Part shown: in pieces, positions 49,769-56,448 of the stretch
Layout of the letters: every line of letters starts with the position of its first letter
Numbering within the stretch: the first letter of the stretch is position 1
Assembly (NCBI GenBank): GCA_026710945.1
Contig: JAPOQA010000028.1
Span: 1-64,000 of the forward strand
Reading direction: 5' to 3'
DNA: 64,000 bases
Source: Chloroflexota bacterium
Lineage (GTDB): Bacteria > Chloroflexota > UBA11872 > VXOZ01
The notes under the pieces: model-generated
The model's database searches: none
The model's input: only the letters and a program-made list of their open reading frames with translations
Told to the model about the DNA's origin: nothing
Program-made: the position numbers and the translations under genes

Positions 49769-50551
49769 ATGGCAAATGAACGAACGTACATCGCGGAAGC
49801 GCTCGTCCTGCGCCGGACGGACTTTCACGAGGCCGATAGACGGCTAACCCTCCTTACGCCTGATCGGGGACGCCTCAACGTCGTAGCCAAAGGTGTGCGC
49901 CGCCCTACCAGCCGCATGGCGGGGCACCTGGAACTCTTTACGTTAGCCAAGGTCTTCGTGGTGCGCCGTCGCAGTCTGGACCTGGTGGTGCAGGCGGAAA
50001 CCGTGCAGACGTTCCCACAATTGCGCACCGATCTCGCACGTTTGCCCTACGCCTACCAAGCCGTCGAGGCCGCGCACATTCTGGTCGAAGAGGAAGTGGA
50101 AGCGCATGGGGAGTTCATCTTGCTCATCAAGGCGCTGAGCGCCCTGGCGGTTACGGCCGCCTTGCCGCTGGTCTTGGTAGCCTATAAACTACAACTACTG
50201 GCGACCCTTGGGTATCAGGCCCAGTTTCAAGACTGTGCGCGGTGCGGCAATCCACTCTCAGCGGCGGGGGCGTCTGCGGCTGCGCGTATCCAGGTGCGCC
50301 CGGATAGCGGTGGGGCCGTGTGCGCTGCGTGTGGCGGCGCCTCCGGGTCGCCGCTAACGGTTCGTGCTATCAAGTGCCTCCGCTGGTTGGCACAAGAGCC
50401 GCTGCACACCGTTGAGCGCCTGCAGGCAGACTCAGCTACAACCACCCAACTGGAACAGACCGCAGATGCCTTTGTGCGCTATGTCGCTGAGCAGGACCTA
50501 AAAACCACGCCCTTTCTGGAGCGTATGCGCGCGTTGAAAACACAGTCGTGA
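49769..50551 (+). CDS. recO: DNA repair protein RecO
   Basis: This 260-residue recombination mediator loads RecA onto SSB-coated DNA together with RecR. The N-terminal OB-fold has YIAEALVLRRTDFHEADRRLTLLT, then GRLNVVAKGVRRPTSRMAGHLELFT. The C-terminal helical domain holds a zinc-finger: DCARCGNPL and a second CAACGG pair. The stop overlaps the glyQS start by GTGA. The size and the Cys-pair arrangement are typical. Confidence 0.9.
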   Translation: MANERTYIAEALVLRRTDFHEADRRLTLLTPDRGRLNVVAKGVRRPTSRMAGHLELFTLAKVFVVRRRSLDLVVQAETVQTFPQLRTDLARLPYAYQAVEAAHILVEEEVEAHGEFILLIKALSALAVTAALPLVLVAYKLQLLATLGYQAQFQDCARCGNPLSAAGASAAARIQVRPDSGGAVCAACGGASGSPLTVRAIKCLRWLAQEPLHTVERLQADSATTTQLEQTADAFVRYVAEQDLKTTPFLERMRALKTQS

Positions 50552-51900
50552 AGGGAATCACGTTGGCAAAGAAATCCGACACCATGGAAGAGATTGTAAG
50601 CCTATGCAAGCGCCGGGGATTCGTGTATCCCTCCAGTGAGATCTACGGTGGCTTCGAGAGCTTTTGGGACTACGGGCCGCTGGGCATCGCCTTGAAACGC
50701 AACGTGCGCGAAGCGTGGTGGCACAATACCGTCCGTACGAGAGAGAACGTCGTCGGCGTGGAGACCGGGGTCATCATGAACCCCAGCGTGTGGCAGACTA
50801 CCGGCCATGCCTCCCACTTCGCCGATACGCTGGTAGATTGCACGAGTTGCCACCAGCGCTTCCGCGTCGATCATCTCGAAGGTGACTCGTGCCCAAATTG
50901 CGGCGGCGAGTTCACGGACCCACGCCGCTTCCTCACCATGTTCAAAACGCACGTCGGTCCTGTGGAAGATGACTCTGCCGTTGCCTTCATGCGTCCGGAA
51001 ACCGCGCAGGGCATGTTCGTCAACTTCAAGAACGTGCTGAATTCGTCGCGGCAGCGGCTGCCCTTCGGCATTGCCCAGATCGGCAAGTCGTACCGCAACG
51101 AGATAACCACCGGCAACTTCATTTTCCGCCAGCGTGAGTTCGAGCAGATGGAACTGGAATTCTTCTGCGAGCCGGGCACCGACGACCACTGGCACGCCTA
51201 CTGGCTGGAAGCGCGGCGCCAATGGTACGTCGCCTACGGGGTGAAAGAGGAGAACCTGCGCTTGCGTCAGCACGGAGATGACGAGCTGGCCTTCTACGCC
51301 AAATACTGCTGGGACATCGAGTACCAGTTTCCGTTCGGCTGGGGTGAGTTGGAAGGCATTTCCAACCGCACCGACTACGACCTGCGCAGTCACAGCGAGG
51401 CCACCGGACAAGACCTTACCTTCTACGACGAACAGCAGAAGGAGCACGTCTCCCCCTACGTCATCGAGCCCGCCGCCGGGGCTGATCGCGCGCTCCTTAC
51501 GTTTCTGCTCGACGCCTACGACCAAGACGTTGACGCCAAGGGTGATTCACGGGTCGTGCTGCGGTTCCATCCTTATCTCGCGCCTATCAAGGCGGCGGTC
51601 TTGCCGCTGGTGAAGAAGGGCGGGCTGCCGGACATCGCCAAAGAGATCGTGGCGGAGCTGCAGTTGCACTGGGACGTCTTCTACGACGAAAGCGGCAGCA
51701 TCGGCCGCCGCTACCGGCGGCAGGATGAGGTTGGTACGCCGTTCGGCATTACCGTGGACTTTGATACCAAAGACGACAAGACGGTAACCGTGCGCCACCG
51801 CGACAGCATGGAGCAGGAACGCGTGCCGGTTGGCGAACTCGTGGCGTTTCTCGCGCAGCACATCCGGCCGGAGCCCAATCCCGATGTGCCGAGCGACTGA
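50548..51900 (+). CDS. glyQS: Glycyl-tRNA synthetase, dimeric class II
   Basis: This 450-residue enzyme charges tRNA-Gly. Class II motifs are visible: GFVYPSSEIYGGFESFWDYG near the start, MRPETAQGMFVNFKNVL, FGIAQIGKSYRNEITTGNF (motif 2), FRQREFEQMELEFF and SNRTDYDLRSHSEATG. A Cys-containing insertion (CTSCHQRF, CPNCGGEFT) is typical of the alpha2 type. An HGTP anticodon domain follows. The start is a GTG overlapping recO; a more internal ATG exists but would remove conserved sequence only slightly. T-box elements are not evident. Confidence 0.92.
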   Translation: MKGITLAKKSDTMEEIVSLCKRRGFVYPSSEIYGGFESFWDYGPLGIALKRNVREAWWHNTVRTRENVVGVETGVIMNPSVWQTTGHASHFADTLVDCTSCHQRFRVDHLEGDSCPNCGGEFTDPRRFLTMFKTHVGPVEDDSAVAFMRPETAQGMFVNFKNVLNSSRQRLPFGIAQIGKSYRNEITTGNFIFRQREFEQMELEFFCEPGTDDHWHAYWLEARRQWYVAYGVKEENLRLRQHGDDELAFYAKYCWDIEYQFPFGWGELEGISNRTDYDLRSHSEATGQDLTFYDEQQKEHVSPYVIEPAAGADRALLTFLLDAYDQDVDAKGDSRVVLRFHPYLAPIKAAVLPLVKKGGLPDIAKEIVAELQLHWDVFYDESGSIGRRYRRQDEVGTPFGITVDFDTKDDKTVTVRHRDSMEQERVPVGELVAFLAQHIRPEPNPDVPSD

Positions 51901-52027: not shown

Positions 52028-52303
52028 ATGGCAGTGCTTGACACCCGCAAGGCAGTGAAGACTCTTACGGGGGTCGGCTTCGAAGAGGCCCAAGCTGAAG
52101 TGCTTGTTGGCCTAGTAAGTGCGGAGCACGGTGAACTCGTAACGAAGGCAGGCTTGAGGACGGAACTGCAAGCACTGGAGTTGCGGATTGAGAAGCGCTT
52201 TAGCCAATTGGAGAAACGCTTTAACCAATTGACGATTCAACTTGTGCTGCTGTTTGTAGCCTTGGCAGGTGTGCTGGCGGCACTGGAACTCATTCCGAGA
52301 TAG
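52028..52303 (+). CDS. Small coiled-coil membrane protein (DUF1640-like)
   Basis: This 91-residue protein begins MAVLDTRKAVKTLTGVGF. A heptad-like coiled coil (ELRIEKRFSQLEKRFNQL, residues ~52-70) is followed by one membrane helix (VLLFVALAGVLAALELI) at the C-terminus. This layout is shared by bacterial DUF1640/CCDC90-like proteins, which are tail-anchored proteins of unknown function. It is followed by a strong bidirectional hairpin at 52366-52398. Confidence 0.6.
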   Translation: MAVLDTRKAVKTLTGVGFEEAQAEVLVGLVSAEHGELVTKAGLRTELQALELRIEKRFSQLEKRFNQLTIQLVLLFVALAGVLAALELIPR

Positions 52304-52427: not shown

Positions 52428-52889
52428 CTAAGAGTTTATACTCTCCGCGTACTCGGCGATGAATTCAACCACCTCGCCGCCTTTCAAGTCGCCCGGGCGG
52501 AAGTCGCGCAGCGCTTGCACTGCGTCCGCCGGAGCGTAGCCTTCGTACTTCACCAAGTATCCTGCCAGGACCGTACCGGCCCCGCCGAAACCGGAGCCTC
52601 AGTGAATGAGGGCTTTGTCGTCGCGCAGTGCAGCCGCGTGCAGGGACTCCACCGCGGCATCGAGCGTCGCCACGTCGCTGCTGACGCCGCTAAAGTTGTC
52701 CACGGTCATGCCGAGGCGTTCGATGGTCGCCGTATCCGGCGCCTTGCGCGAGGCGGCGACGATGTGCTTGATGCCTTGCTCCGCCACCGCGGATAGCTCT
52801 TCCTCAGTCTCGGGGAAGCCGGAGGCGGCGAATTTGCCCTCCCCAAACCACTTGAAAATTCGTGGTAGCGTCTGCGCACTCTCAGCCAT
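52428..52889 (-). CDS. DUSP/PTP-like phosphatase with in-frame TGA at the catalytic Cys position
   Basis: Reading through TGA at 52599-52601 gives a 153-residue protein. The N-terminal part matches dual-specificity phosphatases (FGEGKFAASGFPETEEELSA, EQGIKHIVAASRKAP). The P-loop then reads KALIH-TGA-GSGFGGAGTVLAG, followed by 'YLVKYEGYAPADAVQALRDF' to TAG at 52428. TGA replaces the nucleophilic Cys of H-C-x5-R, and the Arg is also Gly (position 103). A 7-bp stem (+15 to +33 after TGA) with loop GGUAC fits bacterial SECIS rules. It is either a selenoprotein or a pseudogene. ATCTTCTTCC upstream of CAT gives a weak ribosome binding site (GGAAGAAGAT). Confidence 0.65.
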
Positions 52890-53023
52890 GATCTTCTTCC
52901 TTTCTCAATGGAACTCGTCACATAAAGTAACTTTGTCGTAAATTCGGACTGGCCCGCGCTGGTTCTCCCTCACCCCTGTATCATGTCGATACTTTGTATC
53001 GAGTACGGGGCAGGCTCTAACCT

Positions 53024-53250: not shown

Positions 53251-56200
53251 TTATGATGCACGTACCACACCAAGCTTCACAGATATGCCGTTGAGGTCAA
53301 CGGTCTCTTGATGCGCCTCATCCGGCCCATGCGTTGATTCAACGCGCATGGAGAGCGTCTCCTGGGCCACGGCATCGCTGTGGGCGTCCAGCATGGCTGA
53401 CACATTCGCTTGATCCGCCTCCCCGTCGGTTACACCCACGTAGGTCACGATGCGATCGGAAAGGTCGAAGTTCGCCGCGCGCCGCAAGTTCTGGACGTGA
53501 TGGATGAGTTCTCGCGCCATGCCTTCCCGTTCGAGATCGAGTGAGATCTCCGTATGGAGCGCCACCAAGTACCCTTCTTCAGTGGCCACGCTGTAGTCTG
53601 CCCGCTCACGGGCCTGCACGTCCACTTCTTCCGGCTGGAGCTCGATTTGCTCTCCCTCCACCTCTACCGTGACGGGCTTGCCATGGGCAACGAGCCGCGC
53701 GCCGGCCTGCGCGTCGCTCCGGCCCAACGCCGCCGCGATTGCCTTGACCTGCCTGCCATACTTGGGGCCGAGCAGTTTGAAGCGCGGTTTGAGTTCGTAT
53801 GTCACCAGCTCCTCTTCTGGTCCAACGAAACGCAGCGCCTTTACATTCAGTTCGCTGAGGATGTGTTCCTGCAAGCGTTCGAGCCCTGTCTGCTCGTCAG
53901 CGGTTTTCACGTGCACCAGCATCTCCGGCAGTGGCTGTCGCACCTTGATCTTGCTGGTGCTGCGCGCGGCGCGGCCGAGGCTGACGATGCGCTGCGCCAG
54001 TTCCATGTGGGCGAGCAGATCTTCATCGATGAGCGATGCATTGTAGCGCGGCCACTCGGTGTGGTGCACGCTCTCCGGCGCGTCGCTATCTACCGCGCGG
54101 ACGAGGTTCTGGTACACCTCTTCACTGAGGAACGGCATGATGGGCGCGATTGTGCGCGTGAAGGTGGTCAGCACTTCGTAGAGCGTCTGGTATGCCGAGA
54201 GGGTGTCGCGGTCCTGACCGGACTTCCAATAGCGGCGGCGGCCGCGACGCACGTACCACGTGGACAACTGCTCGATGAAATCGTTCACACGCCGGGAAAC
54301 GCTGTAGGCGTCAAAACGCTCCAAGTCGGCGGTTACGTCCCGCACCAGCTTGTGGAGCAGCGCAATGATCCAGCGGTCCAGGATTGAACGCACTTCGAGG
54401 GGCACACTGACACTGGTGGGATCGAAGTCCTCCAAGCGGGCATACGTTACGAAGAAATTATAGACATTCCAGAAGAGCAGCAGGCGTCGCTTCACGTCTT
54501 GGGCCACGCCGTACCCGAAGTTCAAGTTCTGTTGGGTGTTGCTTTCGCAATACAGCCAGCGCATGACGTCGGCGCCCATCTGTTCCACGGCATCGTCGAA
54601 CCAGATGGCGTTGCCGTGGCTCTTGTGCATTGGTCTACCATGCTCGTCATTGACTTTTTCGTAGATGAGCACGTTACGGTAAGCGCGGACGTCTTCCAGG
54701 GTGACGCTCATGAAGGCAAGCGCGTAGAACCACAGGCGGATCTGCTCGCGCATCTCGCTGATGAAGTCAGCGGGGTACCACTTGCCCCACTCGGCGCTGC
54801 CTTCCAGGTAGCCGAGTGTGGAGAACGGCACAATACCGGCATCGAGCCAGCAATCGCCGACCTCCGGGATACGCGCGGTCTCGCCATCGCACTTCTCGCA
54901 ACGAATAGTTATCTCATCGATCCACGGACGATGTAGCTCCGGCAGCGCCCGCACTAATGCCGCGTCTAATGCCCGTTCTTCAAGCTCTTGCACCGTGCCG
55001 ACAATTGTGACGTGGTCGCAGTCCTCGCAGTGGTAGAACGGCAGCGGCAGACCCCAGAAGCGCTTGCGCGAGATGCACCAATCCCCCATGTTATTCAGCC
55101 AGTCGTCCATGCGCTTCCCGCCGTATTCAGGCACCCAGTCGACGGTCTGGTTTTCCGCCAGCATACGCTCACGGATTTCCTCAGCGGAGATGAACCATTC
55201 TTCTACCAGACGAAAGGCGACCTCTTCCCCACAGCGCCAACACACGGGATAGCGGTGCGTGTAGTCCTCTATGCGGTAGACGATGCCGGCTTCTTCCAGG
55301 GCGGCGAAGATCGGTTCGTTGGTCTCGGTGATATTGCGCCCGGCGAGCGGGCCGAAGCCGTCGCCGTAGTTGCCGTCGCCGTCGATGGGCACGATGACGT
55401 GGAGCCCGTGCTCCTGCGAAAGCTCGTAGTCTTCCGCGCCGCAGCCCGGCGCGATATGGACGATGCCGGTGCCCTCTTCCTCGCCGACGATGTCCCAGCC
55501 AACGACCTTGGTAGAGAAACCTTGCTGGGCGGGCAACTCATGCCAGGGGCCGACATATTCCAGGCCCACCAGTTCTTCGCCTTTGAATTCGCGCACGGCG
55601 TTGAGCTTGCCGCGGCCAACGCTCTCGAGAGTCCCCTTGGAGAGGTAGTAGGTATTGCCATTGGCTTCGGCAGCGACGTAGGTGAGGTCGGGATGCACGG
55701 CCAGCGCGGTGTTGGCGGCCAACGTCCACGGCGTGGTCGTCCACACCATGAAGTACTCGTTGTCACGTCCCTTTACCGGCAGCCGCAACGTGATACTCGG
55801 ATGCGTGACTTCGCGGTACGTGTCCGTGCCGACCAGCTCATGCTGCGAAAGGCTGGTGCCGCAGCGAATACACCACGGCATGGAGCGCCAGCCCTTGTAG
55901 AGCCAGCCCTTCTCGTGGCAGCGCTTCAGGAAGTACCAGATGTGCTCGATGTTGGTATCGTCCATGGTGTAGTACGAGTTGTCCCAATCCATCCACTGGC
56001 CGAGCCGGATGGACTGGTTCGTCTGCACCGAGGAGAAGTGTTCCACGCGTTTGCGGCACTCGCGGGAGAAGTTGTCGAGGCCGAATTCCTCGATCTCGTG
56101 CTTCGAATCGAAACCGAGATCGCGTTCAACCTCGACTTCCAACCAGAGCCCCTGGCAGTCGAAGCCGTTTTGATAGCGCTGGGCATAGCCCTGCATGGCC

Positions 56201-56448
56201 TTGTAGCGCTGGTAGATGTCCTTATAGGTGCGTCCCCAGGCATGGTGGACGCCCATGGGATTATTGGCCGTAATGGGGCCGTCAATGAATGACCAGCGGG
56301 GATTGTCCTTATTCTTCGCGACAAGCTTCTCAAAAGCAGCGGTATCCTCCCAGAACTTGAGGATCCGATGCTCCATACTGGGAAAATCGAGGTCTCTACT
56401 GACTTCCTTGAACCCGGCCACCTCGTCCCTCCTGGATGACTGTCCCAC
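53251..56448 (-). CDS. ileS: Isoleucyl-tRNA synthetase
   Basis: This 1065-residue class I synthetase charges tRNA-Ile. The HIGH-like motif is PMGVHHAWGRTYKD, the KMSKS-like motif is GRPMHKSHGNAIWFDD, and the editing domain includes VWTTTPWTLAANTALAVHPD. HELVGTDTYREVTHPSITLR and the long C-terminal DUF5915-like tail suggest the eukaryote-like (mupirocin-resistant, type 2) IleRS, in line with the length. The gene is monocistronic on the minus strand. No T-box was recognised in the 300 bp upstream. Confidence 0.93.
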   Translation of the reverse strand: MGQSSRRDEVAGFKEVSRDLDFPSMEHRILKFWEDTAAFEKLVAKNKDNPRWSFIDGPITANNPMGVHHAWGRTYKDIYQRYKAMQGYAQRYQNGFDCQGLWLEVEVERDLGFDSKHEIEEFGLDNFSRECRKRVEHFSSVQTNQSIRLGQWMDWDNSYYTMDDTNIEHIWYFLKRCHEKGWLYKGWRSMPWCIRCGTSLSQHELVGTDTYREVTHPSITLRLPVKGRDNEYFMVWTTTPWTLAANTALAVHPDLTYVAAEANGNTYYLSKGTLESVGRGKLNAVREFKGEELVGLEYVGPWHELPAQQGFSTKVVGWDIVGEEEGTGIVHIAPGCGAEDYELSQEHGLHVIVPIDGDGNYGDGFGPLAGRNITETNEPIFAALEEAGIVYRIEDYTHRYPVCWRCGEEVAFRLVEEWFISAEEIRERMLAENQTVDWVPEYGGKRMDDWLNNMGDWCISRKRFWGLPLPFYHCEDCDHVTIVGTVQELEERALDAALVRALPELHRPWIDEITIRCEKCDGETARIPEVGDCWLDAGIVPFSTLGYLEGSAEWGKWYPADFISEMREQIRLWFYALAFMSVTLEDVRAYRNVLIYEKVNDEHGRPMHKSHGNAIWFDDAVEQMGADVMRWLYCESNTQQNLNFGYGVAQDVKRRLLLFWNVYNFFVTYARLEDFDPTSVSVPLEVRSILDRWIIALLHKLVRDVTADLERFDAYSVSRRVNDFIEQLSTWYVRRGRRRYWKSGQDRDTLSAYQTLYEVLTTFTRTIAPIMPFLSEEVYQNLVRAVDSDAPESVHHTEWPRYNASLIDEDLLAHMELAQRIVSLGRAARSTSKIKVRQPLPEMLVHVKTADEQTGLERLQEHILSELNVKALRFVGPEEELVTYELKPRFKLLGPKYGRQVKAIAAALGRSDAQAGARLVAHGKPVTVEVEGEQIELQPEEVDVQARERADYSVATEEGYLVALHTEISLDLEREGMARELIHHVQNLRRAANFDLSDRIVTYVGVTDGEADQANVSAMLDAHSDAVAQETLSMRVESTHGPDEAHQETVDLNGISVKLGVVRAS

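Follow-up and report, generated by a model that had tools for sequence, protein, structure and literature searches.

A probable selenoprotein with a dual-specificity phosphatase fold in Chloroflexota

Gene and read-through frame

Within the window, i.e., the whole 64,000-nucleotide stretch of Chloroflexota DNA that we analyzed, a minus-strand frame runs from an ATG at 52889 to a TAG at 52430–52428, and its sole internal stop is a TGA at 52601–52599 (Table 1). An initial sequence-only reading had described this TGA as the single interruption of a phosphatase-like gene, placed exactly at the cysteine of the H-C-x5-R loop, with family-like sequence continuing to the TAG. Both points held. The read-through protein of 153 residues matched the Pfam models PTP-SAK (E 3e-14) and DSPc (E 6e-9), and comparison with PDB sequences aligned the TGA with the catalytic Cys of DUSP23 and archaeal PTPs. 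Standard gene annotation would end the product after 96 amino acids, so that the gene is easily missed in databases.

Table 1. Features of the predicted selenoprotein locus (window coordinates).
Feature	Position	Strand	Remarks
Predicted DSP-fold selenoprotein gene	52428..52889	(-)	ATG to TAG, 153 aa, predicted Sec at 97; kept in 8 genomes
In-frame TGA, predicted to be read as selenocysteine (residue 97)	52599..52601	(-)	Aligns with catalytic Cys of DSP phosphatases
P-loop H96-U97-G-S-G-F-G-G-A-G-T106	52572..52604	(-)	Arg of HCx5R replaced by Gly103, followed by Ala104
bSECIS hairpin, 7-bp stem (52584-52578 / 52572-52566), apical loop GGUAC (52577-52573)	52566..52584	(-)	Loop 21 nt after TGA
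Codons 101-109, identical in six genus genomes including synonymous sites	52563..52589	(-)	9/9 degenerate codons; permutation p 0.00045
Shine-Dalgarno-like GGAAGAAG	52893..52900	(-)	Directly upstream of ATG; identified by eye, inferred
ileS (isoleucyl-tRNA synthetase)	53251..56448	(-)	Upstream neighbour, conserved in genus
glyS (glycyl-tRNA synthetase)	50548..51900	(+)	Downstream convergent neighbour, conserved in genus

Conservation, distribution and neighbours

In all six genomes of the genus that we examined, the gene is present with this TGA as its only internal stop, at 82–88% protein identity to the window copy. Genus loci that bear L and G designations stem from the same genomes and were counted once. 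A profile search of the entire class, comprising 41 genomes, yielded copies in a second family, where both genomes have the gene at 46% identity, again with the TGA at the same codon and without a second stop. The loop of these copies, H-U-G-S-G-[FY]-G-G-A-G-T, is as in the genus. The Sec clade was hence found in 8 of the 41 genomes of the class. No additional Sec-clade copies were present in more than 800 distinct Chloroflexota genomes searched, where the homologues were forms without the stop. For other phyla, a single contig scan, which reached close relatives only, returned nothing but Chloroflexota, and we found no relatives among viral contigs and plasmids.

In the second family the gene adjoins DUF2961 and GFO/IDH/MocA genes, a setting unrelated to that in the genus, and no neighbour common to both families points to a functional partner. 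One second-family genome (G031) has, some 1.5 kb away from the Sec gene, a divergently oriented DUF4395 and thioredoxin gene pair (L076:8979-9983), a possible reductant; such a pair was not seen near the gene in the genus. Both second-family genomes (G031, G030) also encode a separate Cys homologue with the loop HCAAGRGRTGT, by sequence a canonical Cys/Arg DSP phosphatase from the superfamily to which the Sec form belongs. As this phosphatase is retained, the Sec form is no replacement for the Cys form in these genomes.

Selenocysteine decoding in the same genome

We searched all 70 contigs of the genome (98% complete) for selenocysteine machinery. It contains tRNA-Sec (67 bits; ARAGORN SeC(tca), anticodon tca), SelA (464 bits), SelB (360 bits) and SelD (380 bits). 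SelD itself has a single in-frame TGA, in the context C-A-G-U-A-G-K, and this member of a known selenoprotein family shows that the genome decodes UGA as Sec. The selD gene (G000:C41:80333-81262) is a selenoprotein gene by sequence, and its mRNA hairpin has a GGUNC apex, as in the DSP-fold gene.

Among the findings that would refute a selenoprotein, the initial reading had named the absence of selA, selB, selC and selD from the genome and scattered additional stops in close relatives, and it had suggested checking homologues at residue 97 and for the R103G change. Neither refutation materialized: all four genes were found, and all eight Sec copies have TGA and Gly at these two positions and no other stop.

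Purifying selection before and after the TGA

Purifying selection acts on the frame on either side of the TGA, with dN/dS of about 0.08. Mean pairwise values within the genus (six genomes) were 0.086 for codons 1–96 and 0.081 for codons 112–153. Synonymous divergence, however, collapsed directly behind the TGA: mean dS in the 14 codons 98–111 was 0.13, compared with 1.13 upstream and 1.14 downstream, and within this stretch, where the GGUNC-tipped hairpin lies, nine consecutive degenerate codons are invariant in the genus (Table 1). Coding constraint that continues past the TGA, together with additional constraint on the RNA directly behind it, matches the prediction for a selenoprotein gene with a bSECIS element.

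A bSECIS-like hairpin follows the TGA

Published bSECIS loops follow the pattern N1-G-[G/U]-N-N2, in which N1 and N2 pair, at a distance of 16–37 nt (PMC13188914). As criteria we applied a position 16–37 nt after the UGA, an apical loop of 3–9 nt and a G among the first two loop positions. The sequence-only reading had proposed a 7-bp stem with a GGUAC loop starting 21 nt past the TGA and fitting published criteria, and this held as described. The loop meets both our criteria and the pattern of PMC13188914, and the hairpin is present in all Sec copies.

The same reading had cautioned that GC-rich DNA forms hairpins easily. The folding energy is not exceptional (z -0.87), and a hairpin meeting loose criteria follows 16% of the TGA trinucleotides in the window, or about 1% when a GGUNC apex is required. 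Taken alone, the hairpin is weak evidence for a selenoprotein; it is raised above chance by the conservation of the TGA in eight genomes and by the frozen synonymous sites. Compensatory base changes in the stem were not found among the copies, the only exchange being one G-U to G-C in the second family. Because the stem scarcely varies, RNA covariation is uninformative and the structure is not independently proven.

The SelD mRNAs of the same genomes have a hairpin about 32 nt past the UGA with GGUNC in its tip. From this we infer, as no more than a possibility, that SelB of these bacteria may recognize one GGUNC motif in both mRNAs.

The fold is retained without the phosphatase residues

An AlphaFold model of the protein showed a confident DSP fold (pLDDT 82) with DUSP23 as best structural match in the PDB (2img, TM 0.82). 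The protein resembles the DUSP23/VHZ-like and archaeal PTP-fold small phosphatases (PTP-SAK, DSPc) in this fold, in a full-length sequence match and in position and length of the P-loop. It differs from them in having Sec for Cys, Gly for Arg and a deleted acid loop; moreover, their RPG[S/A][V/I] motif reads RPGDL or RERDL in the Sec proteins.

We analyzed these differences in a tree and alignment of 8 Sec and 20 Cys homologues, all from Chloroflexota. All Sec forms lie on one side of a branch with 100/99 support. The P-loop Arg is kept in every one of the 20 Cys homologues, compared with Gly in 8/8 Sec copies. The residue that follows is Ala in all eight Sec copies and Thr in most Cys homologues, two of which also have Ala. 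The Sec copies, with H-U-G-[S/G]-G-[F/Y]-G-G-A, hence do not meet the HCx5R[S/T] signature. Most Cys homologues keep an Asp or Asn in the acid loop, where all eight Sec copies share a 3-residue deletion across the general-acid loop, at the Asp position. In the Sec clade, Sec97 provides the sole conserved selenol or thiol, a second conserved Cys being absent. Within the Arg-less clade we found no orthologue with Cys for Sec, and the Sec/Cys exchange was seen only relative to more distant Cys homologues.

In the DSP/PTP mechanism, Cys acts as nucleophile, Arg binds the phosphate and Asp is the general acid. With the P-loop Arg and the acid loop lost, this mechanism is therefore not expected. Judged from sequence, which leaves its activity inferred, the protein is DSP-like in fold and probably no phosphatase.

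Comparison with known selenoproteins

Most of the selenoproteins known from prokaryotes are either metalloenzymes or thioredoxin-like, AhpD-like or rhodanese-like. The 2026 catalogue of such proteins (PMC13188914) includes rhodanese, arsenate reductase, Prx, Trx and AhpD among its many families. Catalogued proteins (AEM 2026 review; deep-Sep 2025) share the recoding logic and the bSECIS criteria with the gene described here, but we did not find a DSP/PTP-fold family in the text of the 2026 catalogue or of the deep-Sep 2025 paper, their supplementary tables being outside our search. The phosphatase mentioned in the GOS survey is a PP2C domain fused to Prx, and its text has none of the DSP/PTP kind. 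Also, no NCBIfam model matched the read-through protein significantly. We conclude that the fold of the new family is not found among catalogued selenoproteins, while prior mention elsewhere, in subscription journals or supplementary tables outside our search, is not excluded. This agrees with the initial remark that a Sec-containing phosphatase-fold protein would be new to that reader.

The closest analogies are twofold. In rhodanese-like selenoproteins (UxxS, UxxG and others), Sec likewise heads an active-site loop in a fold usually associated with a Cys nucleophile; fold and family differ, however, and the Sec protein is matched by DSP models but by none for rhodaneses. SelD of the same genomes shares the in-frame TGA, the downstream hairpin with GGUNC apex and the decoding machinery, but it is an unrelated protein, and its hairpin apex lies about 11 nt farther from the UGA.

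Proposed function and alternatives

We consider it very likely that the gene encodes a selenoprotein, as the sequence-only reading had suggested; actual Sec insertion is inferred from sequence evidence, without peptide, 75Se or mass-spectrometry evidence. In the proposed mechanism, SelB with Sec-tRNA would bind the GGUAC-tipped hairpin just past the UGA, which would then be read as selenocysteine to give a 153-residue protein of dual-specificity-phosphatase fold. Without selenium, translation would end at 96 residues with an incomplete P-loop. The selenol of Sec97, heading the P-loop helix, would serve as redox nucleophile and not for phosphate-ester hydrolysis, in a cycle of peroxidase-like or selenenyl-sulfide type that an external thiol, for instance thioredoxin, would resolve. 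The redox role is inferred because of the missing residues and the usual use of Sec. Given a selenoprotein, we regard redox-type use of Sec in place of phosphatase chemistry as likely, again by inference. A selenol that stands alone at the start of a helix would suit one-Sec redox or transfer chemistry. The account as a whole, i.e., Sec insertion, DSP fold and redox rather than phosphatase chemistry, is on balance the reading we favor, though by a modest margin, with insertion and chemistry both inferred.

The alternative that survives best, and that remains possible, is a selenoprotein in which Sec97 is a nucleophile of the carrier or transferase type (for rhodanese-like transfer of perselenide or persulfide, or for selenium handling) and the protein is no peroxide or disulfide reductase. 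It is favored by the single selenol and the absence of a resolving Cys. Moreover, rhodaneses also use P-loop-like cradles, and several rhodanese-like selenoproteins are catalogued (PMC13188914). Against it, neither family shows a genetic link to selenium or sulfur-transfer genes.

We think it unlikely that the selenoprotein still hydrolyzes phosphate esters, with Sec as the better nucleophile and another group in place of the P-loop Arg. The DSP fold is retained, and by their sequences the Cys homologues are P-loop phosphatases of the canonical kind, but 8/8 copies are without the P-loop Arg and the general-acid Asp, with the acid loop deleted across.

Even less plausible is an ordinary stop, with a 96-aa product and the remainder untranslated or restarted. 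Standard gene callers would terminate the gene at the UGA, and a restart is possible in principle at the TTG/GTG codons 112–113. However, dN/dS is the same after the UGA as before it, the sequence past the UGA matches the DSP family and contains the P-loop helix, a 96-aa product would be without P-loop, and the TGA persists down to 46% protein identity without a second stop appearing.

A young pseudogene, which the sequence-only reading had held to be the main alternative, or a sequencing error is all but excluded: a TGA at the catalytic residue together with Arg loss could indicate decay, but eight separately assembled genomes share the TGA and the Arg to Gly change under purifying selection throughout, and a read error is ruled out because all of them (82–88% identity; two at 46%) have the TGA. 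That reading had observed the P-loop Arg to Gly change correctly, R103G being invariant in the Sec clade; its use as evidence against a selenoprotein failed, as the change is a clade-wide feature coupled to acid-loop loss and no sign of decay. Genome-wide UGA reassignment was rejected, since translation with the standard code leaves no interruption in the adjoining ileS (1065 aa) and glyS (450 aa).

We propose that this is likely a new family in which a DSP fold swapped phosphate for selenium chemistry through loss of Arg and acid loop and the change of Cys to Sec. As part of this reading, these events would probably fall at the root of a single clade within one class of Chloroflexota. If true, a DSP/PTP-fold member adds a new fold to Sec enzymology and shows a route from a P-loop phosphatase to a selenium enzyme; two of the same genomes also encode Cys phosphatase relatives with which it can be compared.

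Among the relatives, three loci (L011, L012, L013) come from bins whose names look like those of sponge-associated metagenome bins, which would suggest a symbiont lineage. Next to the gene, the window holds a 91-aa frame (52028-52303, plus strand) with a coiled-coil-like stretch, a C-terminal hydrophobic segment and no Pfam match, and this frame also occurs in three relatives, with glyS on one side and the Sec gene on the other.
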